Below, piece after piece: positions 28,125 to 64,000 of a DNA stretch of 64,000 nucleotides. How positions within the stretch are numbered: position 1 is the first letter of the stretch; every line of letters begins with the position of its first letter. A program made the translations under genes and the position numbers. This DNA comes from Roseomonas rosulenta (lineage in GTDB: Bacteria > Pseudomonadota > Alphaproteobacteria > Acetobacterales > Acetobacteraceae), in contig NZ_JACADR010000001.1 in the NCBI RefSeq assembly GCF_016106005.1, forward strand, positions 1 to 64,000, in the 5' to 3' direction. The notes beneath the pieces were generated by a model. It did no database searches. It worked only from the letters and a program-made list of their open reading frames with translations, and was not told where the DNA came from.

Positions 28125-28487
28125 ATGCGCAAGACCCTTAGCCTCGCCGTTGCGCTGATCGCCCTCGGTACCGCCGGCCCGGCCATGGCAGACATCTATG
28201 GCGGCACGAACGGCCTCGACATCGCCAATGGCATGCCTGCGGCCAACGGCCTTCAGTCCCCGAACGGTATGCCCGAGATGAACGGCATCCCCGCCTGGAA
28301 CGGCCTTGCCCAGCAAAACGGCTTGCTGAACCCCAACGGCATGCCCGCGGCGAACGGCCTGCCTGCGTGGAACGGCATCGGCCAGTTGAACGGCCTGATG
28401 CCGGCCAACGGTCGGGCCCGCGCCATGGGCCTCGAGGTACGGGAGATCATGATGCCGGGCTACGCGCCGGTCGCCCTGTCCCGCTGA
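28125..28487 (+). CDS. Secreted Asn-Gly repeat protein
   Basis: A 120-residue protein with a Sec signal peptide (residues 1-22, ending AMA-D). The mature part holds about eleven NG dipeptides in residues 29-95, spaced mostly 6-8 residues apart. The unit is close to NG-[M/L/I]-P-x-x, as in NGMPAANGL and NGIPAWNGL. A non-repeat tail ends the chain. There is no Cys, so it is not a lipoprotein. AGAGGA lies 8-10 bp before the ATG. It stands 57 bp upstream of an ADYC-like gene on the same strand. I know no function; the repeats suggest a beta-roll, adhesive or matrix-type structure. Confidence 0.75.
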   Translation: MRKTLSLAVALIALGTAGPAMADIYGGTNGLDIANGMPAANGLQSPNGMPEMNGIPAWNGLAQQNGLLNPNGMPAANGLPAWNGIGQLNGLMPANGRARAMGLEVREIMMPGYAPVALSR

Positions 28488-29943: not shown

Positions 29944-30404
29944 GGGGGGCAACTCCAATGAGCGGGCAGGCACTGAATTCGGAGGCGACGTTGGCGGGCC
30001 TGCTTGCAGTTCTGGTTGGTCCCGGGGCGCTGTGGCAGGGGTCGCGGAAGGGCGATGAGCAGGACGCTGGTCCGCCACGATGGCGGATCTGTTGCTGGCC
30101 GTGCCCCGGCGGCGTCAGAGTCCTCAAATCACGACATGGGGTGACCAGGCAGCCTGTCGAAGTTTTGGAAGTTTCGACTGGTGGCGTAATCGAGGGTGTC
30201 GCGAGGTCCGGAGAACTTCGGTCCACAGGAGAGCAGGTCGGTGTGAGTTCGACGACCGCACTGCGCGAGGCCCACGCACGAAAACCAAGGAAAACATGCG
30301 CCACACGGCGCAGACGCATGGCGGGCAGACTTGTCGAGCAGGGTGGAAGTGGTGTAGGAAAGGGAACCAGCAGCGAACTGTCTCTTGGGGCGCAGGCGTT
30401 GGAT

Positions 30405-33400
30405 CTACGGTTCCAGACGGATTTGTAACTCGGAGAGATCCTCCGCAGGCATTTCTGAACCGATCAAGCTGTGCAGGTACTCCAGCAGGTCCTCCTGGCG
30501 GGGTTGCCCGAAGGCAAGGCGATAGACGGTCAGGCTGCGCTTGAGCCATTCGAGCCTGCGAACCTCCCGGCTGAACGGTAGCATCGGTACGCGACGTTCG
30601 ACTTTGACCGCGCCTTCATAGATCCAATAGGGGATGAGGTCGGTATCGACCTCAGCGTCGGCGCGGGCAGCGTCGAACATCGCCTTCCACGGGTCATTCT
30701 GGTTCGAGCCGCCACCCCGAACCCTGTCGATCTGTCGATCCGCCAGATTGAGGCGGATGGCGTGGCCTTTGAAGCGATGAACGCGCCCTTCGCGCTGCTC
30801 GAGATCGACTGGATTACCAGGCAGGTTCCAGTGATAGACGCGATAGCAATAGGGATGGAAATCGAGCCCCTCCTGTCCGACCGAGGTCGTGGCCAGCACA
30901 AAGGGCCGAAACGGCGAGTTGAAGGCGTCGCGGACACTGCCGAGACGCGCGGCGCTGCCTTCCTCATCCTTGTAGTCAGCCAGGCGCATGGCGAAACGTC
31001 CGCGCATCTGGAACTTCTTGATGACCACCTTCTTACCGGCGACGACCGGATCTTCGACGTCGATCTGCGAGGGCCTGACGGAGAGCGCGTCGGAGATCGC
31101 TTTGCCGACACCGGCAACCCGCTCGACGGAAGGTTGTGCCCCCAAGCCTTCGGCATCGACCAGATAGTGAACATACTCGTCGAGAACCGCCTGGAGATTA
31201 TGGTCGACGCCATAGGTCAGCACGCGCCGCCAATATCGATCGTCATCATCCTTCCGCAGGAGGGCGACCGCATCATGCTGATTAAAGAGCGTTCGAAAGC
31301 CCCAGGAGACCTGGTTGGCGGCGGCGAGGAGTCGGTGATCATCCCATTCGAGATCGGGTGCGATCCGATGCAGGGCGCGCAGCGCGCACACCGCTGGACT
31401 GCCCAAGGCGACATCGACCAGGAGCTCGAGCACCGTGTCCGGAACCGGCCCAAAGGTGCGCCCCGTCGCCACTGTGCGGAGCTCAGCGACGTGCTCCTTG
31501 AACCCCTCCTCGTTGCCCAGCGCTGCGAAACCGGAAGGGGCAGCGACCCACGCCATGGATTTTGCTCCCGCCATCGCGTCGATCACCGCCGGCGCGGCCC
31601 ATTCCCAATCGCGACCGTCGGATGCATCGCCCGATCGTTGGACCAGCGCCGTCACGCTTTCGCGTAGGCGTTCGGCAACGGCCTGCCGCATGGCTTCGAC
31701 CGACAGGGTTTCGCTATGGGCACCGAAGATCGTCAGCGGATCGGCGAGCTTGGCCAGGGTTGGCGACGGATAAACCAGGTGCATGGCGCGCATGGCGACG
31801 AGCCGTCCCTGGTCCTGCCGAAACTGGATGGGGCGAGGCCGTACGTGGCCGAAGTACCGCTGGCCTGCCAAGCCTACGCCCATGCGACGTTCGGCTTCGT
31901 AGGAAAGGATTGCGGCGATCGCATCGGGCACCATCGACCAGGATGAGAAGATCAACGCCTTGGTGAGGGGCCGGCCGACGCGCTCTGCGCCGTAATAGGC
32001 CAGTGAGGGCGGGATCCAGAGATGCTGATCGAGGCCTTCCCCGAACACGTCATCCATCACGCCGCGCATCCGGCCATTGGCCGGTTCGAGATGCTCGTAG
32101 GAATCGAGGTGATCGTGGTCGAGCATGGCCGGCCTCGCGCGCTCAAGCGCATCGCGGAGGTTCACCGCGGGCTTGTCCAGCTTGTCCTTGAGGAGCCTCT
32201 TCAGCGCGTAGTCCCGCATGAAGTTGAGCAGATACGGTGCGGACTTCCAGTATTCGATGACCTCAGGCGCATCGAGCGCGCGGGCAACATCCGAGATGAC
32301 CGCTGCTTGGCGAAGGTCGATGGGCTGAATGGTGACGGTCATTGGCCGCTCACTGACCATCGAATCGCGCTCAATGGTGCTCGCGACGCGTTCGGTCCGC
32401 GCCATCACCTTGCGCAGTCGCTGCTCGACCTTCTGGCGGGCGGCGATGGCCTTGGGCCTCGCCTCGGGGAGCGCGTGAAGAAACCCACGGAATTCCCGCA
32501 TCTCTCGCTCAAGGGTCTTGGCAATCTCGGGACCGTTCGCGCTGCCGTACAAGAACGACAGGGTCTCCAGAAAGTCACGGTAGTGCTCGCCCTCGTCGGG
32601 CTCGTCGCCCGATAGGGTGAGCATCCGGTACGGCGTTGCTGACAGCAACAGCGTACGCGCGGCATGCCCATTGCCATCGGAGTAGTTGAACAGTTCGCGC
32701 GCCAGAACTGCGGCGGGTGTCTCACCGTGGAGCAGATCGCGGAAGCGCTGAAACTCATCCATGATGATCAGGTCTGGCTTCAGGGCATCGATGCAGGCGT
32801 GCGACAGCTTGCTCCGTAAACGGCCAACCAGCGCATTGCGACGCTGGCTCAGCTCGAGGGGATAGGTCTCCCGACGGCGAGGGAACAGGTCGCAGACGGC
32901 CTCGAGCTCCCCGAACAGATCGACGTCAGATTCCACATCGCGGCGGAAGCGGTCGACGATACGCTGGTCAACACCGTCAAGGGTGACGTTGTTCACCGCA
33001 CCGTTCCATCCGTCCACGCCGGCGGTCACTTGAAGCAGATTGTGCAGCCCGCGTGGCAGGGAAACACTGCCTTCCAGCATTCGCAGCAGAAGCGCGCGTT
33101 CTTGGGTAACTCCAGTCGTGGACCGAAGATCGAAAGTGGTGCCCGGCGTCAGGCTTATGAAGTTCACCTTGTTGGCGTCTAGGCCCTGGTCACCGCGCAC
33201 CTGGAGTGGGATCAGCGTCATGCGGGTCGGCAAAGCTAGTTCACGGCGGTTGAGGACGTTCAGACGGTTGATGTTCTGAGCTGCGATCGCCTGGTTCGAG
33301 CAGATGTAGAGGATGTCGATGCGATCGGTCGTATCCCACAGGGCCTCTATGGTTCGGGCGATTACCCCACGCGCAACCATGGTCTTGCCTAGGCCGACCT

Positions 33401-33533
33401 CATCAGCGACGAGGAATTGCCGGACGGAATCTCGGTCGCCGTAAAGCCGGTCAAACACATAGTCGACTGTACGACGCTGGAATGCCTTCAGCGGAGCGAG
33501 CGCGACCTCGGCATTGAAACGCTCATCCGGCAT
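30405..33533 (-). CDS. Large SNF2/DEAD-like helicase of the island operon
   Basis: A 1042-residue superfamily 2 ATPase. Motif I is DEVGLGKT (residues 44-51), motif II is DEFQ (259-262), motif III is SATPYRM (298-304). The C-terminal RecA-like domain has ATTSVGQEGLDFHPYCYRV and then QREGRVHRFKGHA (motifs V and VI). LKAFQRRTVDYVFDRL at the start is the Q-motif-like lead. An insert of ~550 residues separates the two RecA halves. SNF2-like helicases of this kind translocate on DNA in restriction and DISARM-like systems. Its start overlaps the nuclease gene by 11 bp, and it is the last gene of the operon. Base composition is clearly less GC-rich than the operon's first half. Confidence 0.9.
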   Translation of the reverse strand: MPDERFNAEVALAPLKAFQRRTVDYVFDRLYGDRDSVRQFLVADEVGLGKTMVARGVIARTIEALWDTTDRIDILYICSNQAIAAQNINRLNVLNRRELALPTRMTLIPLQVRGDQGLDANKVNFISLTPGTTFDLRSTTGVTQERALLLRMLEGSVSLPRGLHNLLQVTAGVDGWNGAVNNVTLDGVDQRIVDRFRRDVESDVDLFGELEAVCDLFPRRRETYPLELSQRRNALVGRLRSKLSHACIDALKPDLIIMDEFQRFRDLLHGETPAAVLARELFNYSDGNGHAARTLLLSATPYRMLTLSGDEPDEGEHYRDFLETLSFLYGSANGPEIAKTLEREMREFRGFLHALPEARPKAIAARQKVEQRLRKVMARTERVASTIERDSMVSERPMTVTIQPIDLRQAAVISDVARALDAPEVIEYWKSAPYLLNFMRDYALKRLLKDKLDKPAVNLRDALERARPAMLDHDHLDSYEHLEPANGRMRGVMDDVFGEGLDQHLWIPPSLAYYGAERVGRPLTKALIFSSWSMVPDAIAAILSYEAERRMGVGLAGQRYFGHVRPRPIQFRQDQGRLVAMRAMHLVYPSPTLAKLADPLTIFGAHSETLSVEAMRQAVAERLRESVTALVQRSGDASDGRDWEWAAPAVIDAMAGAKSMAWVAAPSGFAALGNEEGFKEHVAELRTVATGRTFGPVPDTVLELLVDVALGSPAVCALRALHRIAPDLEWDDHRLLAAANQVSWGFRTLFNQHDAVALLRKDDDDRYWRRVLTYGVDHNLQAVLDEYVHYLVDAEGLGAQPSVERVAGVGKAISDALSVRPSQIDVEDPVVAGKKVVIKKFQMRGRFAMRLADYKDEEGSAARLGSVRDAFNSPFRPFVLATTSVGQEGLDFHPYCYRVYHWNLPGNPVDLEQREGRVHRFKGHAIRLNLADRQIDRVRGGGSNQNDPWKAMFDAARADAEVDTDLIPYWIYEGAVKVERRVPMLPFSREVRRLEWLKRSLTVYRLAFGQPRQEDLLEYLHSLIGSEMPAEDLSELQIRLEP

Positions 33534-35379
33534 AGGCGGGGCCCTGATGCTGAAGTGCGATCCGGAAAGCGTCCCACAGAGTACGGAAATCGGCCGGAAT
33601 AGGGTCGGCGCCGGTGTCGTTTCCGGCTTCCAACCGCGTCATGAGGCGCTCGATCGCATGGAGCCGCTCGCCGCCGCGGCATAGGGCGCGAACCATGTCT
33701 TCCAGAAGTGGCGCATCGTCGGCGGCCGTGGCCCACGACATGCTGCCTGCGCCCTCTTGCGCGGCGAGAGCCGCGCTGAAAGGGTCTCCGAGTTCGGAGA
33801 GTAGGAGCCGCAGGTAGCGGAAGAATGCATCCCGACTGTCGATGACCCACCGAAGAATGGCGGCATGGCGGTCTGGTGGAAGCCCTTCCATGACCAGGCT
33901 GGTGCTGAAGAGTGCCGACGCCTTGTCGTTGTCGGCGTTCACGCGAAACGCCAGAAAGCGGGTCAGATCAACGAGTGGCATGGTGCCGAGATCAACGGCT
34001 GTACCCGCTCGGAGAGCTGCCAGAACATCGCTGGCGTGCCCGTCGCCTCGTGTGATCGGCCAGACACTCACGGATGCGATCCCGCTGAGCGGAATTGATT
34101 CGGCTGGGATCAGCCACACGCGCCACGGATGCGCGTCGCCGTCCTGGCTCTCGATCCGCTCGCAGCGCAGACGCAGTCCACCTCGGCATAGGGCGCGGCG
34201 CGCGTCGTCAATGTTGGCCTCGGCCGTCGCGATCGCTGGATCGAGCGGTTCCAACTCGCTGGGGACAAACCCGCGGGTTAGGCGCCCGAAGCCCTTGTCC
34301 CCCATAATCTGTTCAACGCTGCCAACCTTGGAGCGCTTGCCTCGGAGCGAGGCGAAGAGTTCGACATTATTGCCGGAGATCAGCGCTGGGCGGGTGGCAT
34401 TGCCGGAGCCAATCGTCAGAATGGTGTCCCAGCCACTTTCGGCGATGAAGGCCTTGGCGTGAAGACCTTGCAGTGCGTTGGTCGAGACCTCTTCGCCGTC
34501 TTCACTGGTAGCCATCTCGTCGAGAACTGAAACGCGCCCAAAGGCTTGCAGGGTCACGGCGTCCACGCAGGCCAATTGATCGGGCCTGCTGATGATGACT
34601 GGCTTCTCCGCCGTTGGCAGGCGACTGAGCAGATCAAGCGCGCTGGTATCGCAGAACGGCGAGATTACGCCCAAGCGCGCGCACGATGCGGGCTGCCAGA
34701 CCCTGCCGCCAAAGCCGTTGACGGCGAAGGTGACGTCATCAAAGCGGTCGGGCGTCGTCCATCTAACGCGTCGGATGTCTTCAGCGACCTGGGCGGTCAG
34801 CGCGCGCGCTTCATTCGACAAGCCGGCGACAGCAAGGTCTGGCAGGCGACTGATGAGATCGAACAATGGCCGGTTGGTGGCGTCCGGCCGGCCGGTCAGC
34901 TCACCGTCGAGGCGGAGCGAGATATCCCATGAACGGTCGCGCGTCAGGTTGCGAGACAGCACGAGGAGCCGCAACAGGATTGGATCCTCAGCGCGCGTGG
35001 GTCGATAGCGCAAGGCCCAGAGCTTGGGATGGAAAGCGCCTCCGCGCGGTGCTGCCACCTCCACGATTATGCGTTCCAGGAGGGAGCATAGGCGCGAATG
35101 CGGGCGGCTCTGTGCGTGGAGATGCCCAGCGTCGACGAAGACCACTAGCCGCCCAGCGATGCGTTCCGCTCCTTCAAGGAGCGCGAGCGGATGGCTCAGG
35201 ATGTCGTCTCGATTCTCGGCGGCGAACAGCGCGAGGCTGACCGGCGCGGCCAGCGCAGTCTCGAAATCGAGCGAGAAGGTCGTGGCGATCGCCGCGTCGA
35301 AGACATAGCCCGGCGGCGGCTGGAGGCTATCGCCATAGAGGACGCGGGTTTCGGGATCGAGCGTCGTCCTATTCAGCAT
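33523..35379 (-). CDS. Phospholipase D-family nuclease-like protein
   Basis: A 618-residue protein with two HKD-type half sites. The first is GAFHPKLWAL (His117, Lys119) followed by LVLSRNLTRDRSWD. The second is GLHAKAFIAESGWDTILTIGSGNATR (His307, Lys309, then GSGN). This H-x-K...(G)S-x-N pattern is the active site of PLD-superfamily nucleases. The remaining ~290 residues are not recognised. The gene overlaps its upstream and downstream partners by 11 bp each, so it is made together with the helicase, and a nuclease-helicase pair acting on foreign DNA is the natural reading (inference). Confidence 0.85.
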   Translation of the reverse strand: MLNRTTLDPETRVLYGDSLQPPPGYVFDAAIATTFSLDFETALAAPVSLALFAAENRDDILSHPLALLEGAERIAGRLVVFVDAGHLHAQSRPHSRLCSLLERIIVEVAAPRGGAFHPKLWALRYRPTRAEDPILLRLLVLSRNLTRDRSWDISLRLDGELTGRPDATNRPLFDLISRLPDLAVAGLSNEARALTAQVAEDIRRVRWTTPDRFDDVTFAVNGFGGRVWQPASCARLGVISPFCDTSALDLLSRLPTAEKPVIISRPDQLACVDAVTLQAFGRVSVLDEMATSEDGEEVSTNALQGLHAKAFIAESGWDTILTIGSGNATRPALISGNNVELFASLRGKRSKVGSVEQIMGDKGFGRLTRGFVPSELEPLDPAIATAEANIDDARRALCRGGLRLRCERIESQDGDAHPWRVWLIPAESIPLSGIASVSVWPITRGDGHASDVLAALRAGTAVDLGTMPLVDLTRFLAFRVNADNDKASALFSTSLVMEGLPPDRHAAILRWVIDSRDAFFRYLRLLLSELGDPFSAALAAQEGAGSMSWATAADDAPLLEDMVRALCRGGERLHAIERLMTRLEAGNDTGADPIPADFRTLWDAFRIALQHQGPAYAG

Positions 35380-36553
35380 TTACGATATCCCGCAGGTGCG
35401 ATCTGGCCTGCGCCCATCGGAAGCTGAGCGGTTCTGCGCCCGACGCGCCGGTCCAGCGGTCGCGTACAGCCCGGTTCGCGAACCTCGACTGGCTGGTTTT
35501 CAATCGTCGCTCGCGGTCTTGCACCATTCGCGCAGCATCCGTGCGGTTGCCGACACTGACGCCTCCGGACTTGAGCAGTGCCAGCCAGTCGGTAACGAAG
35601 CGCTTTGCTGCCGACCGAATCCTGTGCGCGGGATGGTCGATCGCTTGCCAGAAGGCGTCGAGTGACCAAGCGCGGATGGCGGGCATATCCAAGCCGGCGC
35701 GCCAATCAGCGAGGCGTGCTTCATACTTTTCGATCCAATCGGATCTTTCGCGCATCTGGCTCAGCAGCAGATTGTAGAGAAGGGAGGCGCCGTGCATCAC
35801 GCTGGAAAACATTGCACCGTGCTCCACCAAAGTGCGTGCGTCTTTGGGGAAGTCGGCTAGGTGCGGATGCTCCCAGATGTTCTGGCAATCTGCCTCCCCG
35901 CCTGAGGTGCGCGCCAGAAATGCCAATAGGCTGTGCGGCTGGCTTGCCACCAACCGATCGATAATGAACTGGGCCTCGTCGAGCGAGAGTTTGAACCGCG
36001 TGGCCTCTAGCAGATCCCTGGGCCGAGACGGCAAGGCAGGCGTCCAGATCAGCAGGGCCTGGGCTTCGACTGCTGGGTCTTCGCTCTCGCGAATTCGCGG
36101 GCGGTTGCGCTGAAGATGGCGCATGGATGAGAAGAGGCTATCGGCTGAGCCGGGGAAGAGTCGGATGCCCCATGTTCCGAGACCCGCCCAATAGACGGAA
36201 CTCGGCAGTCGCTGGAGGTCGGCGCCTGCATCCCGGCCAATGATCCCGTTGGTTTCGCCACCAGCCTTCAGAGCGTTGGCAAGCCTAGTTTCGAACGCCC
36301 GTGCCTCTCTCGCGAGCTCGTCTGGCCCGACCGATGAGTCCTCAAGCATCTGGAAGAGCCAGGGGATAAACAGCATGTAGCGCAGTCGAGTCTGGATCGT
36401 GCTGGTTCCCGGGAAAAGATGGTCGGCAATCGAATCGCGAATGCTGCCAAGACCAAGTTCGTCGCGGGTCTCGCGCTCCTGGAACAGAGCCATGATCCGC
36501 TGCGCGCGCTGACGCTCGGCTTCGTCGAAGTCAATCCAGGCAAGTGACGACAT
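35369..36553 (-). CDS. DUF6361-like protein
   Basis: A 394-residue protein starting MSSLAWIDFDEAERQRAQRI. The N-terminal DELGLGSIRDSIADHLFPGTSTIQTRLRYMLFIPWL is the characteristic stretch that I associate with the DUF6361 family. SSVYWAGLGTWGIRLFPGS lies further on. No catalytic motif is evident. The first ATG in frame with good family fit is at 36551-36553, which overlaps the fusion gene by 23 bp. Its stop overlaps the PLD gene by 11 bp. The family is usually seen beside PLD and helicase genes (recalled, not checked), suggesting it is a structural or adaptor subunit of that complex. Confidence 0.75.
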   Translation of the reverse strand: MSSLAWIDFDEAERQRAQRIMALFQERETRDELGLGSIRDSIADHLFPGTSTIQTRLRYMLFIPWLFQMLEDSSVGPDELAREARAFETRLANALKAGGETNGIIGRDAGADLQRLPSSVYWAGLGTWGIRLFPGSADSLFSSMRHLQRNRPRIRESEDPAVEAQALLIWTPALPSRPRDLLEATRFKLSLDEAQFIIDRLVASQPHSLLAFLARTSGGEADCQNIWEHPHLADFPKDARTLVEHGAMFSSVMHGASLLYNLLLSQMRERSDWIEKYEARLADWRAGLDMPAIRAWSLDAFWQAIDHPAHRIRSAAKRFVTDWLALLKSGGVSVGNRTDAARMVQDRERRLKTSQSRFANRAVRDRWTGASGAEPLSFRWAQARSHLRDIVNAE

Positions 36554-38420
36554 TTTCCCCCCGCCGCTGCTTGTGCACTGATTGGCCATGCAGCGCCTCC
36601 GCCAGTAGCAGCAAATCGTCTGGCCAATAACGGTGAGGTCGGGGCTGACCCACTCCGGTTTCAGCCAGAGGGCGGCATGCCAGCACTGCCATGCGCCAGC
36701 GCGTCGGGATCGCCGTGCGCCCTTGCGCTGCGCCCAGGAGCGCACCGCAGATCGCTCCATTGGTGTCGGTATCGCCGCCGGCGCCGACAGTCTCCATGAG
36801 GGCGTCCGCGATGGACGTCCCGGCGGCCAGGTGACGAAACGCGTTCTGGAATGCGATCAGGACCCAGCCCTGCTGGCTTATGAAGTCACCGGGACCTTCG
36901 CCAGCCCGCGCGCTCGCAAGCGCTGCACGCAGTGGCGCCGCCTCCTGCTCCGGCATTACTGCCTCCGCCGATGTCAGCATCGCCTCCTTGTTGCCGCCGC
37001 CGATTCCGGTCGCGATCGCTGCGACGAAGGCGGCCGATGCTGCCTGGCAGATCGGATGCGGGTGGGTCAGTGCCGCATCCTGTCGTGCCGCAGCCGCAGC
37101 CTCGGCGGCGTCGCGGGCCCAGACGCCTATGGGCGCGCACCGCATGAGAGCGCCATTCGCCTGGCTCTCTCGGTTCGCTGCCTTCCGGGCTGCGCAGGCC
37201 TTGTCCTGTGCGGCTCCTGCGGCGGCGGACAGCGCCTGCCGCGTGGTGCCGCCGATGTCGAAGGGCCGCGAGGCGTACCAGCCAGCATAAGCGGCTGCGA
37301 CCGCCTCGGATGACCAGGACGTCTGGCCGACCAACGTACGCGCGAGGTCGAGCGCGAGTTCGCTGTCATCGGTCGGTTGCCCGGCGATGGTGTTCCATGT
37401 GCCGCCATCGGCGAGATCGCGGACGCCGTAGGGGTATTGCCGGGCGATGTCTTCGGCGGAGCGGAACTCGACCAGCGAGCCGAGCGAATCCCCAGCGATT
37501 TGCCCGAGGAGGCAGCCTAAGGCGCGATCGAGCGCTAGCCCCTCATCCAGACGCGGCCAGGCAAGCTTCAATCTCCGAGCCAGGGGCGGGCCACGCCGCA
37601 CAGCGCCCCAATTGCGCGCAGCGAGCGCCCGAACGGCAGCCTCCGCCCCCCCGAAGCACCACCGGGCGCTGCTGTGGCCGTCGATCGTGTAGCGGACCTC
37701 GGCGCCAGCTTCGTCGAGCAGCACGCCGCCGGCGCCGCGGACCAGCGCATGGCCGGCGGCGTAGTCCCAACCGCAGGGGCCGTTGAGCGAGACCGCCGCG
37801 AGGCCATCCCCGGCCGCCACCCTCGCCAGCCGATAGGCGATCGAGGGCAGGCCCACGAAGCGGGCCGGAGCCACGGCTTGCCCGTTGCCGATCGGCCATT
37901 CCGGCGCGGCGTGGCTCAGGAAGACAATGCTGCCGGGGTGGAGCGCGCCTTGCGCGAGTTGTGGCCGTACGGGCTGTCCGTTCCGCAGCAGGTGATCCAT
38001 GCCTTCGGCCCAGGCGATGGTATCCGCCCCACGATCGGGCGACAGCGGCGCATGCACCACACCGAGCACGGGCACGCCGCCCCGGAGAAGCGCGATGCAG
38101 ACCGCAGAGCCGCGATAACCGGCCAGGAAGGCGCTTGTCCCGTCATTCGGATCGACGAGCCAGCAATCGGCGCCGCCTGGCCCGGGATCCGCCCCGGTCT
38201 CCTCGCCCAGCCAGCGGGCCGGCAGGAGTTCGAGCAGGCGATCGCGCAGCCCTACCTCGATCTCCCGGTCGATCTCAGCATGGCTACCCGAGCCGCGCGG
38301 CCCGCCAGGTCGCGCGAACTCGGCGGCCAGCAGACGACCGGCCGCCTCGGCCGCAGTGACCACGGCGGGCAGGAGGGCGCGGAGCTCTTTAGTCTCGGCG
38401 ATGGCGTTCGGCACGGTCAT
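36531..38420 (-). CDS. Inositol-monophosphatase-like / ADP-ribosylglycohydrolase fusion
   Basis: A 629-residue two-domain protein. Residues 1-~270 are an IMPase/CysQ-type phosphatase: EE at 73-74, VDPNDGTSAF at 89-98 and GWDYAAG at 217-223 supply the metal ligands. Residues ~295-610 are an ADP-ribosylglycohydrolase: GDSLGS at 310-315, TDDSE at 350-354, NGALMR at 422-427 and GGDTDTN at 548-554 are the di-metal motifs. Both active sites look intact. The first enzyme class removes phosphate from sugar or nucleotide phosphates; the second removes ADP-ribose. Together they could process an ADP-ribose-derived product (inference). ATGA overlap with the VWA stop fixes the start. Confidence 0.9.
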   Translation of the reverse strand: MTVPNAIAETKELRALLPAVVTAAEAAGRLLAAEFARPGGPRGSGSHAEIDREIEVGLRDRLLELLPARWLGEETGADPGPGGADCWLVDPNDGTSAFLAGYRGSAVCIALLRGGVPVLGVVHAPLSPDRGADTIAWAEGMDHLLRNGQPVRPQLAQGALHPGSIVFLSHAAPEWPIGNGQAVAPARFVGLPSIAYRLARVAAGDGLAAVSLNGPCGWDYAAGHALVRGAGGVLLDEAGAEVRYTIDGHSSARWCFGGAEAAVRALAARNWGAVRRGPPLARRLKLAWPRLDEGLALDRALGCLLGQIAGDSLGSLVEFRSAEDIARQYPYGVRDLADGGTWNTIAGQPTDDSELALDLARTLVGQTSWSSEAVAAAYAGWYASRPFDIGGTTRQALSAAAGAAQDKACAARKAANRESQANGALMRCAPIGVWARDAAEAAAAARQDAALTHPHPICQAASAAFVAAIATGIGGGNKEAMLTSAEAVMPEQEAAPLRAALASARAGEGPGDFISQQGWVLIAFQNAFRHLAAGTSIADALMETVGAGGDTDTNGAICGALLGAAQGRTAIPTRWRMAVLACRPLAETGVGQPRPHRYWPDDLLLLAEALHGQSVHKQRRGENVVTCLD

Positions 38421-39742
38421 CGCCCGGGCGGTCGGCTGAAGCGCTCGGCGATCGAGGCACGCGGTGCTGCGCGGAGGTCTTCCTCGTAGCGCGCGCGCTT
38501 CATGGAGGCCGAATAGACCTCCTTGCGGGTCCGCTCGTCCCATTCCTCGCCGATCCGGCGCTGCACCAGCACCAGCTCCGCCACCAACGTCTCGGTGCCC
38601 GGCACGCCGCGGGCATAGGGTTCCACCCAACGCAATTGCCGCTCCAGAAAGTGCGTCGCGGCCCGGCGATCGCCTTCGCGATTCATCCTGACCGCGCTGC
38701 GCAACACGTCGGCCGTCCACGCCTGGACCACCGCGAGCGTGCGGTCCGGGTCGCGCGGCTGGGCGTTGTTGTCCGTGCCTCGGGCAAGGCGCAGCTCGGC
38801 CTCCACGGCGCGCGCCTCGACCGCTTCGCCGCCGGCCGGCAGCGCGCCGCCCGCCGAAACGCCCAGAAGCAGCACCATCCCGGGCGCACCGGCGGGGCAA
38901 TGCAGACGGACGACCAGCCGCTTGGTCTGGCCCGGGAGGAGCTTCCCAACCATCACCTCCAGAACCCCAGGCAACGCGGCATGCGCCCAGCTGCCGACCA
39001 GCTCGGCCCGCAGGTTCGCCGGCACGCTGACGCGCAGCGTGACACGCTCCAGCAGGGCGGCGCGGCCTTCCTGCAATTCGCCCAGCACCACCTCGGCCAC
39101 TTCGGTGCCGCCGGCGGCGTCGTGCAGGCTGCCACCGCCCGCCTCGGCGATGGCGCCGAGCAGTTGCTCGTCATAGCCGTCCCCGATCCCAAGCGCGGAA
39201 GTCAGCACGCCGCGCTCCAGCAGCGCGCCGACGTGCCCCGCGATCTCGCCGCGGTCGGTGAGACCGTCATTGGCGTGACCGTCCGAGAGCAGCAGCACGC
39301 GATGCGAGGCTGTCGGGTCGACGGCCATGGCGGTCGCGATGCGCTCGGCCGCCAGCAGCCAGCCGTCGAAAAGGTTTGTGCCACCGCGGTCTGTCAGGCC
39401 CCGGATGGCGCTTGCTGCGGCAGCGCGCCCCGCCACGTCCATCGGGCGGGCATCCAACAGCAGCTCGGCCTTGTTGTCGAAGGCAACGAGGCTGAGGCGG
39501 TCCTGCGCGGTCAAGGCCTCGACCACGGCCAGGGCTGCACGTCGCGCGGCGTCAATCTTGTCGCCGGCCATGCTACCGGAGATGTCGATCGCCAGCGCGA
39601 GGTTCAGCGCCGGCACCTCCCGCTGGGCGGTCTCGCCCGCAGCCGAGAGATCGGCGACCAGGTAGCGGACGGAGCCTCCCTCATGCCAAGCCAGGGTGCG
39701 ATCCAGACCGGCGGTGAGGTTCAGGGTGGTGGTGTCGGTCAT
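38417..39742 (-). CDS. VWA-domain protein with intact MIDAS
   Basis: A 441-residue cytosolic protein. The von Willebrand A domain spans about residues 45-220 and has a full metal-ion-dependent adhesion site: DISGS at 53-57, GGTN at 120-123 and SDG at 153-155. The C-terminal ~200 residues form a beta-rich part and a helical end (RRIGEEWDERTRKEVYSASMKRARYEEDL). No signal peptide or membrane helix is seen, unlike most Ca-channel-like VWA proteins. VWA proteins often hold multi-protein complexes together or work with AAA/MoxR ATPases; none is encoded nearby. It overlaps the regulator and the fusion gene by 4 bp each. Confidence 0.88.
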   Translation of the reverse strand: MTDTTTLNLTAGLDRTLAWHEGGSVRYLVADLSAAGETAQREVPALNLALAIDISGSMAGDKIDAARRAALAVVEALTAQDRLSLVAFDNKAELLLDARPMDVAGRAAAASAIRGLTDRGGTNLFDGWLLAAERIATAMAVDPTASHRVLLLSDGHANDGLTDRGEIAGHVGALLERGVLTSALGIGDGYDEQLLGAIAEAGGGSLHDAAGGTEVAEVVLGELQEGRAALLERVTLRVSVPANLRAELVGSWAHAALPGVLEVMVGKLLPGQTKRLVVRLHCPAGAPGMVLLLGVSAGGALPAGGEAVEARAVEAELRLARGTDNNAQPRDPDRTLAVVQAWTADVLRSAVRMNREGDRRAATHFLERQLRWVEPYARGVPGTETLVAELVLVQRRIGEEWDERTRKEVYSASMKRARYEEDLRAAPRASIAERFSRPPGR

Positions 39743-40344
39743 CGGTCCCTCCCGAGCAGGATGTCGCGGATCAGATCGGCGCACCGCTCAAGGCGGGTGC
39801 GCTGTTCGGCGTCGAGCGGGCCGCGGACGGTCAGTTCAACGTCGGGGGTGACTGGAATGCGGAGCCATTCCTCCGCGCGGGCCTTGCGGGCCGGCTCCGG
39901 GCGTCCCTGCCCGAGCCGATGTTCCAGCGCCTCGAGCCCGGTCGCCGCGCGTGGCCCCGGCGGGGTCGCTGCCGCCGCCACGGCGGAGGCGGGCTTCGGC
40001 ACGCGGGCACGCAGGTTCGCGATGTAGTCGAGCGCGCTGGATGCCGGATTACCCGCCGGCGGCGACGGCTTTGCGAGGGTCTCGGCGCGCGACGCGTAGG
40101 CCGCGATCTGCTCGGGGTTGGCGACGAGCAACTCCTTCCGGATGTCGGTGAGCGACATGCCGAGCGCGTCCCGCATGGTCCGGATGGCGAGCAGGCGCGA
40201 GAGGGTGTCAGCCGGGTAGCGGGCGGCCGGCCCGCGGGTCAGGGGCGGCGGCAGAAGGCCCTGGGCAACCCAGGACCGGATCGTACGAGGCTCGAGGCCC
40301 GACGAGGCGGCAAGGTCGGCGAGGGATGGCTCGGTGGTGAGCAT
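39739..40344 (-). CDS. MerR-like transcription regulator, first gene of the island operon
   Basis: A 201-residue protein with an N-terminal winged HTH of MerR type (LADLAASSGLEPRTIRSWVAQGLLPPP, then YPADTLSRLLAIRTMRDALGMSLTDIRKEL). The middle is Ala/Pro-rich and probably flexible. The C-terminal WLRIPVTPDVELTVRGPLDAEQRTRLERCADLIRDILL is a small ligand or partner domain that I do not recognise. It lacks the coiled-coil plus Cys ligands of metal sensors. Since it leads an operon whose promoter carries repeated half-sites, autoregulation is likely. Confidence 0.82.
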   Translation of the reverse strand: MLTTEPSLADLAASSGLEPRTIRSWVAQGLLPPPLTRGPAARYPADTLSRLLAIRTMRDALGMSLTDIRKELLVANPEQIAAYASRAETLAKPSPPAGNPASSALDYIANLRARVPKPASAVAAAATPPGPRAATGLEALEHRLGQGRPEPARKARAEEWLRIPVTPDVELTVRGPLDAEQRTRLERCADLIRDILLGRDR

Positions 40345-40392
40345 GGCGCATGTCTATTTCAGACAATGCGACATGTCAATATAAACGACATG
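40345..40392 (-). promoter_or_regulatory. Predicted promoter and operator of the six-gene operon
   Basis: On the minus strand TTGACA (40379-40374) and TAGACA (40356-40351) are separated by 17 bp. The expected start site, about 7 bases downstream, falls on or next to the A of the regulator's ATG (40344), so the message may be leaderless. Three half-sites surround it: CATGTC (40349-40354), GACATGTC (40370-40377) and GACATG (40387-40392). They make two inverted repeats with 15- and 9-bp spacers, suitable for binding by the operon's own MerR-like protein. Confidence 0.5.
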
Positions 40393-40677
40393 ACGAGATG
40401 CGAAGCGGCGCTCGCGTCGCCGTGCTTGCGGTGCGAGACGAAGTGCCGGCCGCTTGATCGTACGTGGGCTAGCTGTGGCCAGTAGGTTTCATGATCTGCG
40501 GAGCCCCTCTGGTGCAATTGAGAGCAGATGATTGCCGGGCGTTGAACCTCGCGTCCGGCGATCGATCCGAGGCGAAAAGATTAAAGGGCCAATCGGGTGA
40601 AAAATACTCCCGAAAGGGCTTGTGTTGGATCGAGCGGTTGGTTATGAAAGGGCCATCAAGGAGCACGAAACACCCCG
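40393..40677. other. Intergenic region between divergent operons
   Basis: About 285 bp upstream of the rightward cluster, AT-richer than its surroundings, especially 40560-40620. It should hold the rightward promoter, but I see no convincing -35/-10 pair. AAGGAG at 40658-40663 is a possible ribosome binding site for the gene at 40678, somewhat far (14 bp). Short open frames (for example 40491-40694) show no recognisable features. Confidence 0.5.
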
Positions 40678-41754
40678 ATGACCCTTCTTCCTAATCAAGC
40701 AGCCGCCGATCGTGAGGCCTTCCTCGAGTCACTCGGTTGGTCCGATCGCCACAACGAAGAGGTCTTCGCCATCGCGGAGATCCAGGAGCTCGTCCGGAAC
40801 ACCGGCGAATGGATCGAAGCCCTACTCGGGCCTTACCGCGGCGCCGCAGCGATGAAGGCGGTGCTGCTCGCACTCGAGCCGATGGAGGCGAAGGGCAGCG
40901 CGAAGCAGCAACAGCGGGTTGCTGCAACCGCGGCCCGGATTGACGCCGTAGGTTGGCGCGAAGTTCTTGAACATGAAGCTGATGGGCTCGCCGACTGGCC
41001 CTCTCTCGCGAGCGACTTCGAGTGGCTCTACGCCTATGCCATCGACGGCATCGTCTATGAGGGGCGAGAAACGCGCACGATTGAGCAGCGCCGTGCTCAA
41101 CTCGTTGAACTCTTGTCCCGGACGGATCACTTCATCTCCCTGTTGCCCCCGGCGTGGGAGCCTTCGAAGGACTACCGGTGGTGTCTCCGCCGTATCCACG
41201 CGTCCGCAAAGGCGCGCTGGAAGCTCGACACCGGCGAACGGCTGACCGTCGCGGACGTCGCGCTCCTGGGTCGCCTCGATGAGAAGACCGTCCTCAACGC
41301 GTTCAGCGATCGCCGTTTACCGAGCTCGGCAGATGGAACATGCGCGGCCGAAGACGCGCGTGATTGGCTAATTAGTCGTCGCCCCAAGAAGTTCCGCCCG
41401 TCGCGGTGGATGGACCCAGGTGATGACCAGGACAGCCGCTCGCCGGATGAAAGCGCGGACCCTCGTCAAGGCGACACGGTATGGGTGCCGGTAGACGCTC
41501 GCGGTGACGCCTTCCTGCCAACCCTTGCGCGTCCGACGCGTCAGGGCGCCCTCGGCTTCCGAATCGGCCCGAAAGGGAACGAGCAGACGGTGGGGGACTT
41601 CTTCGACGCCCTCAGCGCGCTGAAGGGAATGCACCCTCCTCGCTGGCGACGCCCGAACGCCGAAGGCAACTGGGGAATTGTGCGGGCCGAGCCAAGCTGG
41701 CGCGCGATGCCCCGCGCCGAGATTGACCGACTACTTCGTGAAGCCGGCTTTTAG
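40678..41754 (+). CDS. Unknown protein, divergent from the island operon
   Basis: A 358-residue soluble protein I do not recognise. The N-terminal half is helical and acidic (SDRHNEEVFAIAEIQELVRNTGEWIEALLGPYRG). A possible helix-turn-helix-like segment, LTVADVALLGRLDEKTVLNAFSDRRLP, lies near residues 195-222. The C-terminus contains VWVPVDARGDAFLPTLARPTRQGALGFRIG, a beta-rich part. No membrane helix, signal or metal motif is visible. It leads a rightward cluster of four genes. Its base composition is intermediate and unlike the chromosome to the left. Confidence 0.7.
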   Translation: MTLLPNQAAADREAFLESLGWSDRHNEEVFAIAEIQELVRNTGEWIEALLGPYRGAAAMKAVLLALEPMEAKGSAKQQQRVAATAARIDAVGWREVLEHEADGLADWPSLASDFEWLYAYAIDGIVYEGRETRTIEQRRAQLVELLSRTDHFISLLPPAWEPSKDYRWCLRRIHASAKARWKLDTGERLTVADVALLGRLDEKTVLNAFSDRRLPSSADGTCAAEDARDWLISRRPKKFRPSRWMDPGDDQDSRSPDESADPRQGDTVWVPVDARGDAFLPTLARPTRQGALGFRIGPKGNEQTVGDFFDALSALKGMHPPRWRRPNAEGNWGIVRAEPSWRAMPRAEIDRLLREAGF

Positions 41755-41780
41755 CCAAGCGCAGCAATGGGAGATGAGAG

Positions 41781-42059
41781 ATGGAACTCGCCATGACACG
41801 CCATGCGACTGCGCGCTCTCAGGGGCGTGCGATCCCGCCCTTCGTGGTCTCGCTCCTCCTCGACCACGGTTCAGATCTTCGCCACGACGGAGCCGAAGTA
41901 CGGTTCGTCGACAAAGCAGCCCGGCGCCGTATCCGGCGCGAACTCGGCGACCGCATTCATGCAGCCATCGAACCGTATCTCGATGCCTACGTCGTCTGCT
42001 CCGATGACGGGAGGATCATCACCACTGGCTGGCGCGTCCAGCGCCTGAAGCGGCCCTGA
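41781..42059 (+). CDS. Small conserved hypothetical protein
   Basis: A 92-residue protein (MELAMTRHATARSQGRAIPPFVVSLLLDHG...). It has an R-S-x-x-R-x-I-P-P start, a central DHGSDLRHDGAEVRFVDKAARRRIRREL and a beta-hairpin end (AYVVCSDDGRIITTGWRVQRLKR), resembling the small DUF4258-like or toxin-like fold, though I cannot confirm this. GGGAGA 6-12 bp before 41781 supports that ATG; an ATG four codons later is possible. Its TGA overlaps the next ATG (TGATG). Confidence 0.6.
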   Translation: MELAMTRHATARSQGRAIPPFVVSLLLDHGSDLRHDGAEVRFVDKAARRRIRRELGDRIHAAIEPYLDAYVVCSDDGRIITTGWRVQRLKRP

Positions 42060-42922
42060 TGGGTTCGCGCCTTTCGACTACCAGCCCCATCTGCCCGTCA
42101 GGAGTTCCGATCATCACAATGGATACCGTCGCTATCGATGCCGACCTCATGCGCCGCTTCGCTCCGGTCGTCAGTTCAACTTCCGCGGATGCCTTCCTAA
42201 GTGGCGAAACACTCGCCAGCCTGACCCTCGCGGAGGCGCCACCCCTTTCGGTCGTGTGGGCGCCATTCGACCATATGCCGTCCACCGCACGGCTGGTGAT
42301 CGTTGGAATCACGCCTGGTAGGCAGCAGGCTGAGAATGCGCTCCGCGCCTTCCGAGACGCCTTGCGCAGCGGAGCGGTCCTCAGTGAGGCCGGGCGCCGG
42401 GCGAAACTGACTGGGTCCTTTAGTGGACCGCTGCGAGCGAATCTGGTGTCGATGCTCGATCACATCGGAGCGCACCGTGCCCTCGGCGTGCGCGGATGCC
42501 TTGAGCTGTTCGACCCTGCACGTGAAATCGTGCATTTCACCTCTGCGCTTCGATACCCTGTCTTTGTCGCAGGCCAGAACTACAACGGCGCGCCGGACAT
42601 GCTGACTAACCCGACGCTTCGACGGATGGTCGAGACCCTTCTGGCCGCAGAGGCGCAAGCGCTGCCGAACGCTCTCTGGCTTCCGCTCGGGCCCAAGCCC
42701 GCCGCGGCACTGAGGCACCTCGTCCGACTTGGCATTCTTGATGCCGCGCGCGTCCTCGATGGCTTGCCTCACCCTAGCGGCGCGAACGCCGAGCGGATCG
42801 CCTACTTCCTCGGCAGAAAGGCGCCCGAAGCCCTGTCGTCCAAGACCAATCCGCAATCGATCGACGCTGCCCGTGATGCGCTTCGCGCGCAGATCACGCG
42901 GCTGACGGGTGAGGAGTCCTAA
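42059..42922 (+). CDS. Uracil-DNA-glycosylase-like fold protein
   Basis: A 287-residue protein with UDG-superfamily-like signatures. LVIVGITPGRQQA at residues 79-91 matches the motif A G-x-x-P-G loop. LPHPSGANAERIAYFLG at 236-252 matches the motif B H-P-S-x-x-N loop that recognises the flipped base. The segment VHFTSALRYPVFVAGQNYNG lies between. Length exceeds typical family 4/5 UDGs. It may excise or recognise modified bases in foreign DNA (inference). The start couples to the upstream gene (TGATG); an internal ATG at 42119 is an alternative. Confidence 0.6.
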   Translation: MGSRLSTTSPICPSGVPIITMDTVAIDADLMRRFAPVVSSTSADAFLSGETLASLTLAEAPPLSVVWAPFDHMPSTARLVIVGITPGRQQAENALRAFRDALRSGAVLSEAGRRAKLTGSFSGPLRANLVSMLDHIGAHRALGVRGCLELFDPAREIVHFTSALRYPVFVAGQNYNGAPDMLTNPTLRRMVETLLAAEAQALPNALWLPLGPKPAAALRHLVRLGILDAARVLDGLPHPSGANAERIAYFLGRKAPEALSSKTNPQSIDAARDALRAQITRLTGEES

Positions 42923-62740: not shown

Positions 62741-64000
62741 TCAGGCCGCGGCGCACTTCAGCTTGCGCATGGTCTCCGCCAGCACGACCGCCCCACCCAT
62801 GCGCCGGCGGAACAGGAACCGCACATTGCCGCTGGTCGCCTGCGTGAAGGGATCGCGCAGCATCGTCATGGCGATGCGATCGACGATGACGTACCCCCGC
62901 CGGAAGTCCCCGAAGGCGATCGGGAAAGCATCCGCCCCCTCGTTCGGCATGTCCGGGCATTCCACATACTGCGCGCCGAGGATGGTGTTCGGTACGCCAT
63001 TCGCCAGCCCCGGCATCCAGACGTAGTTCTTGTCGGCGTCCTTCAGCTTGCGCACCGAGCCCAGCGTCACCCGGTTCAGCGTCCACACCGCATTCCGGGC
63101 ATAGGCGGTCCTGAGGGCATGGAAGAGCGTGATCAGCCCATTCCCCTGGCCCTCGGCATCGGCGATCGTGGCGGCCGAGCCCGACACGGTGAAAGCGATG
63201 TCGGCATTGGTGAGGATCCCCTCCGCCTCGCCGACGCCGGAGCCGCCGACGAATTCCTGCCCCTCCTTGACCGCGAACTGCTCGACCGCCTCGGCGCGGA
63301 TCTCGCTCTCGAGGTCGTAGGCGCTGTCTTCCAGGTTGTGCTGCGAGATGTCGACCAGCGCATAGACCTCCGGCGCGGTGATCTCGATCATCCCGTAGGC
63401 AAGGCCGGGGGTCTCCGTCCGGGTGCCCTGCTCGGAGACGCGCCGGGCGGCGAACTGGCCGGTGCGCTTCGGCAGCATGATCGACTTGGTGGAGGTGCCC
63501 CGCACGCGGGCGAGGGACCGGACGGGGCTCATCTCGGTCACACCCTTGATGATCTCGCGGACGTATTCCGAGGGGGCCAGGTAGCCGCCGGTGGTGTCGT
63601 CGGCGATCGACATGGCCTTGTGCTCGGCGGCGACGTCGGAGAGGGCCTTCTGCTGCTCGGCGGTGAGGTTCGGCACCCCGAGGGTGTGGGCGTTGATCAC
63701 CGCCCGCGCCCAGGTGTTCACCCGGGCCTTGAGCTCGGCCTGGCGATCGCCCGATCCCATACCGGGGCGGTTCAGCCGGGTCTCGATGCGCTCCAGCGCC
63801 TCCTTCGAGCCCTCCGCCGCGTCGCGGCCGGCCTTGGCCTCGAGCTCAGCCTTGGTCAGGCGCTGGTTCAGCGTCTCGAACTGGTCGAGCGCCGTGTTCA
63901 CCCGCTGGAGCTTCTCCTCCAGCAACACGTCGGCGCTGCCCTTGCGGGCGAGCTCATCCAGGCGGCTGTCGTTGGTCGCCTTGAATTCCTCGAAGGCGCG
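62741..64000 (-). CDS. HK97-family major capsid protein (5' end outside window)
   Basis: The visible ~419 residues belong to an HK97-fold capsid protein. An N-terminal coiled-coil delta domain (LEEKLQRVNTALDQFETLNQRLTKAELEAKAGRDA) is followed by GGYLAPSEYVREIIKGVTEMSPVRSLARVRGTSTKSIMLPKRTG. EFVGGSGVGEAEGILTN and PIAFGDFRRGYVIVDRIAMTMLRDPFTQATSGNVRFLFRRRMGG are the usual A- and P-domain marks. The gene continues past the right edge, so its start cannot be placed. The delta domain suggests that a protease is encoded upstream. Confidence 0.92.
   Translation of the reverse strand, partial: RAFEEFKATNDSRLDELARKGSADVLLEEKLQRVNTALDQFETLNQRLTKAELEAKAGRDAAEGSKEALERIETRLNRPGMGSGDRQAELKARVNTWARAVINAHTLGVPNLTAEQQKALSDVAAEHKAMSIADDTTGGYLAPSEYVREIIKGVTEMSPVRSLARVRGTSTKSIMLPKRTGQFAARRVSEQGTRTETPGLAYGMIEITAPEVYALVDISQHNLEDSAYDLESEIRAEAVEQFAVKEGQEFVGGSGVGEAEGILTNADIAFTVSGSAATIADAEGQGNGLITLFHALRTAYARNAVWTLNRVTLGSVRKLKDADKNYVWMPGLANGVPNTILGAQYVECPDMPNEGADAFPIAFGDFRRGYVIVDRIAMTMLRDPFTQATSGNVRFLFRRRMGGAVVLAETMRKLKCAAA

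Follow-up and report, generated by a model that had tools for sequence, protein, structure and literature searches.

The DNA analysed here, called the window, is a stretch of 64,000 nucleotides from Roseomonas rosulenta (assembly GCF_016106005.1, contig NZ_JACADR010000001.1, positions 1 to 64,000). It carries a run of six genes on the minus strand, from 40344 to 30405, with successive overlaps of 4, 4, 23, 11, and 11 bp. The run is read as a composite operon, in which a portable and self-regulated control cassette, made of a MerR-type regulator, a VWA-domain protein, and an ADP-ribosylglycohydrolase (ARH) fused to a phosphatase domain, stands before the known ZacABC gene set, replaces the WYL-AddB-AddA front that is frequent there, and would control ZacABC; the probability of this reading is put at about 0.55. 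The ZacABC core is known, while the head and the arrangement are new here. An earlier note on this DNA, made from the letters alone, had described six minus-strand genes overlapping by 4 to 23 bp, and its coordinates, strand, and overlaps are all right. Its domain calls hold as well (MerR_1, VWA, Inositol_P with ADP_ribosyl_GH, DUF6361, and DEAD/Helicase_C in Pfam, and PLD half-sites). The G+C content is ~68-72% in the front half versus ~63% in the DUF6361-PLD-helicase half, a first sign of two origins.

Organization and Distribution of the Proposed Control Cassette

The MerR-type regulator is coded at 39739-40344 (Pfam MerR_1, 4.9e-14) and adjoins a VWA gene in every locus read. The VWA-domain protein at 38417-39742 (Pfam VWA, 7.1e-15) overlaps it by 4 bp, and so does the fusion gene at 36531-38420 with the VWA gene. 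The fusion product has an inositol-monophosphatase-like domain (~37698-38375; Pfam Inositol_P, 1.8e-27) and a DraG-type ARH domain (~36699-37517; Pfam ADP_ribosyl_GH, 1.7e-56). A close VWA was found in 17 of 397 genomes of the home family, and MerR is coded directly 5' of VWA in all 19 same-family loci read. The same phosphatase-ARH fusion is the third gene in five loci, namely the window, L099, L090, L091, and L127 (two of the five contigs end within the fusion gene). L151, L152, and L128 have a separate ARH gene in this position, accompanied in L128 by a CDKN3-like phosphatase; the ARH of L154 is divergent, and L103, L104, L105, and L130 have a GGCT/AIG2-like gene; the third gene of the remaining same-family loci is nothing recognisable. 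In L105 and L130, MerR-VWA-GGCT directly adjoins phage tail genes.

DNA homology to L099, L127, L090, and L091 begins 50-110 bp 5' of the MerR start (~40395-40457) and ends at the stop of the fusion gene where the contigs continue, with unrelated DNA on both flanks. As judged from these alignments, MerR-VWA-fusion is a separate, portable cassette with defined ends. The C-terminal residues of the fusion protein are unlike those of all relatives read, and the junction of the third and fourth gene was found at this locus only, among the loci read. No viral copies of VWA or ZacA were recognized in a pattern scan of IMG/VR, only ARH relatives of the fusion, and a search on MerR-VWA pairs in a limited collection of papers gave nothing. 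Some fusion genes elsewhere adjoin WYL and RecB-like nuclease genes, and in L108 and L123 a Nudix gene lies near the fusion gene, which suggests stepwise breakdown of ADP-ribose.

The genes behind the cassette are exchanged. Two genomes of other genera have McrBC there: in G044 (L099), McrB, with a 4-bp overlap, and McrC follow the fusion gene, and in G409 (L127) it is followed by McrB and McrC of a different kind. Despite the difference in genus, the VWA protein of G044 shares 96% identity with that of the window, which marks the exchange of payloads as recent. A related head in R. rosulenta itself (L103) has SIR2 behind it on the same strand. In L154, MerR-VWA stands between Zac-type AddAB genes (~50% identity) and a same-strand set of an unknown gene, PLD, and SNF2. 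The unknown gene of L154 (10080-11480) codes for a 466-aa protein without family match, placed before the PLD-SNF2 pair as ZacA is before its partners. When heads with a directly following same-strand gene were counted, a small set, defence genes stood behind five of eight. BREX is beside the L105 head and a Bse634I-type restriction-modification (RM) system beside the L128 head, on the other strand or nearby.

MerR is followed directly by VWA also in 13 of 13 distant plasmid loci read (Haematobacter, Deinococcus, Meiothermus, Synechocystis, Picosynechococcus, and Cyanobacterium), and together with the same-family loci these span three phyla. In Synechocystis a macro domain is fused to VWA, with BREX alongside; in D. 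ficus a microbial PARG and in D. deserti a dual-specificity-type phosphatase are attached to MerR-VWA or follow it. Picosynechococcus 7003 has GmrSD and DUF3320 genes there, Haematobacter DruE-like and UvrD helicases, and Deinococcus NW-56 AddB/AddA-like genes with WYL, McrBC, and BREX genes further on. With DraG-type ARH, macro, and PARG all found at MerR-VWA, hydrolase families unrelated to each other supply the link to ADP-ribose.

Predicted Promoter and Operator of the Cassette

The putative promoter/operator of the cassette (40345-40395, minus strand) is conserved 5' of MerR in same-family loci and in the Haematobacter plasmid. MerR genes of the home family are preceded by GACATGTC palindromes, one of which lies over a TTGACA box 35 (or 36) nt from the start codon. 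In the window, the operator site TTGACATGTCG is at 40369-40379 on the minus strand, 35 nt 5' of the MerR ATG, and a second site, GTCATGTC, is at ~40387-40394 on the same strand in the MerR upstream region. In 28 of 32 loci from three phyla, TTGACA begins 34-36 nt 5' of the MerR start; at the rate seen in the rest of these upstream regions, 0.07 would be expected, with the reservation that related loci are not independent. Its position is kept between phyla although the MerR proteins are barely alike. With this spacing, transcription is predicted to start at or next to the MerR ATG and to give a leaderless mRNA. The MerR promoter is thus probably leaderless and autoregulated, and the palindromes are the putative binding site of MerR. 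Of the four copies of the exact 11-mer TTGACATGTCG in the genome, two lie at its two MerR genes. A wider MerR regulon was considered and rejected, as one of the other two sites is inside a gene, and the other, close to the end of a contig, is followed by no gene within the stretch read.

Enzymatic Motifs and the ADP-Ribose Link

The ARH domain aligns to Rhodospirillum rubrum DraG (2woc) at 2e-27 and keeps the metal-binding and catalytic motifs TDD, RPxDxG, NGAxMR, THxH, and GGDxDT, including the RPxDxG aspartate, which is Asn in entry 2woe. GEE, DPxDGT, and WDxA are kept in the phosphatase domain, and the MIDAS motifs of the VWA protein (DISGS, GGTN, LSDG) are intact. A Pfam scan of the six operon genes recognized no ADP-ribosyltransferase or sirtuin coupled to the ARH domain. 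A DarTG pair is coded on the same contig, ~50 kb away.

The ZacABC Genes

The last three proteins match ZacA, ZacB, and ZacC of PADLOC-DB 2.0.0 over the full length and in order (E 1.2e-133, 4.5e-172, and 0). The back half is hence identified, by homology, as the catalogued but uncharacterised anti-phage gene set ZacABC, with a predicted anti-phage activity, and the view of the earlier note that no named system fits is superseded for these three genes. A search for Zac in a limited collection of papers found none. ZacA (35369-36553; Pfam DUF6361, 8e-82) overlaps the fusion gene by 23 bp at the join of cassette and payload (36531-36553). Its start is most likely at 36553, and a longer open reading frame from 36760 is most likely a spurious open-frame artefact. 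The ZacA fold is predicted as all-helical (model pLDDT 82). The best PDB matches of this good model, at E 0.63 in Foldseek and at Z 3.6 in VIA-align (82 residues, rmsd 3.7), did not exceed background; they give no hint of function and do not prove a new fold. ZacB (33523-35379), a candidate PLD-superfamily nuclease, overlaps ZacA by 11 bp. It has no Pfam match, only the PADLOC one, and two HxK...S/GxN half-sites of the PLD superfamily at residues 117 and 307. ZacC (30405-33533) is an SNF2/DEAD-type helicase (1158 bits in PADLOC; Pfam DEAD, Helicase_C) with an 11-bp overlap and with Walker A, DEFQ, and QREGRVHR motifs. A terminator-like hairpin is at 30299-30323 on the minus strand, ~80 nt 3' of ZacC, and such sites occur in the region at chance level.

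A scan of a genome collection for ZacA relatives gave 59 other loci (L001-L059). ZacB and ZacC nearly always follow ZacA where the contig is long enough, with near-identical overlaps, and in none of the 59 does MerR, VWA, or the fusion adjoin ZacA; an unrelated ARH relative lies several kb from ZacA in three of them. The front of ZacA is variable. Its commonest form, at ~24-30 of the 59 loci, seen also in a Bradyrhizobium record and missing here, consists of AddB-like (PD-(D/E)XK) and AddA-like (UvrD plus PD-(D/E)XK) genes with a divergent WYL regulator, in some cases also with an HmaA-like helicase. Other fronts have AbiEi/AbiEii or an additional helicase gene inserted. The slot before ZacABC is thus exchangeable and is occupied here by MerR-VWA-fusion. 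Present before ZacABC at roughly every second locus, the WYL, AddB-like, and AddA-like genes look as if they belonged to the Zac system without being catalogued for it, and the AddB-like protein of these loci has no PADLOC match.

DUF6361 is scarce in the home family (2 of 110 genomes), and among the 17 MerR-VWA genomes it is coded by R. rosulenta only, where both copies adjoin the two MerR-VWA pairs. The second copy belongs to a decayed Zac (L103, contig C545, 12914-16935), 2.3 kb from the second MerR-VWA pair, with a gene like ZacA and with ZacB and ZacC fused in frame, the ATP-binding half of the helicase being lost. Between this MerR-VWA pair and the decayed ZacA are two genes (L103, 10867-12611) without Pfam or PADLOC match.

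Surroundings on the Contig

A prophage with endolysin, tail, and other structural genes (L162) extends from 43791 to the end of the window at 64000 and on to ~83 kb of the contig, 3.4 kb from the operon. The genes between them on the plus strand (40678-42922) have no Pfam or PHROG match. Beyond the window, the contig has type I RM genes with the embedded DarT/macro pair (L163) at 88752-98811 and, after them, a tyrosine integrase gene (99278-100507). An 18-bp direct repeat (29973/98698), considered as the prophage ends, does not enclose the integrase in a sensible way and may be due to chance. On the other side of the operon, a small predicted secreted protein of repeated N-G-centred units (NGLDIANGMPAANGLQSPNGMPEMNG...) is coded on the plus strand at 28125-28487.

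Relationship to Known Systems

The back three proteins agree with ZacABC in full length, order, and short overlaps, and differ in having MerR-VWA-IMP/ARH (inositol-monophosphatase-like domain and ARH) where about half of the loci elsewhere have WYL with AddB/AddA-like genes. The operon also resembles the ADP-ribosylglycohydrolase (ARG)-centric operons, predicted as an answer to viral ADP-ribosylation and composed of ARG, phosphatase, vWA or other chaperone, regulator, and nuclease/helicase effectors without a transferase (PMC9503650, section 3.8). In that class, the phosphatase is fused or adjacent in ~55% of systems, and a Nudix- or WYL-domain transcription factor is present in ~42% (PMC9503650). 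Shared features are ARG without transferase, a coupled phosphatase, a vWA gene, a transcription factor, and nuclease/helicase genes. The regulator here is of MerR_1 type and not a Nudix or WYL factor, the inositol-monophosphatase-like domain is of a type outside the published list (PMC9503650), and a complete system with a name of its own, ZacABC here and McrBC in relatives, makes up the nuclease/helicase part. The ARH domain has the family and the catalytic and metal motifs in common with DraG, but is fused to a phosphatase domain and has no DraT or nitrogenase genes beside it. DISARM shares the theme of helicase and PLD nuclease, with a distant helicase similarity (DrmD, 3e-10). It was rejected, as DrmA, DrmB (DUF1998), and a methylase are missing from the six genes, a lack of DUF1998 and methylase already seen in the earlier note, and the Zac match is far better.

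CapW/BrxR, CapH+CapP, CapK+CapS, and RptR are controllers of adjacent immune operons (PMC9122588, PMC9122601, PMC13373217, PMC12255303). Like them, the MerR-VWA cassette is a small regulator cassette with a palindrome at its own promoter before unrelated immune operons, in this case Zac, two kinds of McrBC, SIR2, PLD-SNF2, GmrSD, and AddAB. It has no WYL, protease, or kinase homology (Pfam: MerR, VWA), and the regulator is instead accompanied by a VWA protein and an ADP-ribose hydrolase. The cassette is not known to respond to DNA damage. By analogy, the cassette is comparable in role to the Cap-type controllers and is not a member of them, the proteins being unrelated.

Alternative Explanations

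The earlier note had taken the six genes for one multi-gene defence system. The run is very probably a defence locus with a PLD nuclease and helicase behind a regulatory/ADP-ribose module, and this part of the claim stands, whereas a single dedicated six-gene anti-phage set is strongly disfavoured and was rejected as very improbable. For such a set speak the overlaps of all six genes and the loosely similar combinations in L103 and L154; against it, the head is at none of the 59 ZacA loci, DUF6361 is in one of the 17 MerR-VWA genomes, this one, and heads bear other payloads. The two halves had been expected together in other genomes. Their exact join was found here only, so that the refutation which the earlier note had set for itself largely applies, and what recurs are the looser pairings with the decayed Zac in L103 and with AddAB/PLD-SNF2 in L154. 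It is likewise improbable, if somewhat less so, that the head, as a module for general stress or metabolism (ADP-ribose/phosphate housekeeping), lies outside immunity, with shared mobile islands explaining the defence neighbours. The GGCT/AIG2-like or missing third genes and the metabolic neighbours at some heads would fit such a module, but not the defence genes behind five of the eight heads with a same-strand follower, nor the defence neighbours also on cyanobacterial and Deinococcus plasmids.

A more serious alternative, though a doubtful one, is that MerR-VWA-ARH is a complete, independent ARG-centric system of defence islands, with Zac downstream by chance and read through uncontrolled. 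ARG-centric systems have been proposed to act on their own (PMC9503650), and the sharp G+C difference between the operon halves agrees with mere adjacency. The head also stands alone or before ordinary genes in several genomes, and Zac, having other fronts elsewhere, does not need it. This is countered by two independent cases in which the payload begins within the end of the head (overlaps of 4-23 bp), by a 96% identical VWA that has McrBC and not Zac behind it, and by the second Zac of the same genome, likewise beside MerR-VWA. The reading of the operon as a control cassette before ZacABC also has points against it. Transcription of Zac from the MerR promoter is predicted from the gene overlaps, its sole basis; the exact join of head and Zac is in a single genome; defence genes cluster anyway, so neighbourhood is in itself no proof of control; and several MerR-VWA pairs (L101, L102, L104, L106, L151-L153) have no defence gene behind them. 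To our knowledge, neither an ADP-ribosylation target nor a MerR ligand is known.

Proposed Mechanism and Significance

T4 and other phages use ADP-ribosylation for taking over host proteins. If the cassette controls ZacABC, MerR, bound to GACATGTC over the -35 box, would repress the leaderless promoter of its own gene and hence the whole transcript including Zac. The trigger may be ADP-ribosylation of host proteins by a phage, or another stress that alters ADP-ribose products. The DraG-like domain would free ADP-ribose and the phosphatase domain would process it, and the VWA protein, as a peptide-binding or scaffold protein, and MerR would pass the signal on, so that the operon is derepressed. 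While the hydrolase reverses the modification, the helicase ZacC and the nuclease ZacB would form a second line, directed at the DNA of the invader; ZacA may take part beside them, and no role is assigned to it.

A broader claim, possible but held tentatively, is that MerR-VWA cassettes are undescribed, phylum-crossing controllers of immune operons, which read ADP-ribosylation via attached hydrolases (DraG-type, macro, or PARG) and phosphatases and switch on interchangeable payloads from a leaderless autoregulated promoter. If true, there would be immune control cassettes that sense or reverse ADP-ribosylation and couple this to destruction of the invader, and the ARG-centric systems, so far a predicted class, would become directly testable. 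MerR-VWA with the leaderless TTGACA promoter would be a marker for new defence payloads, and the exchange of front halves would be a route by which Zac or McrBC gain new controllers.

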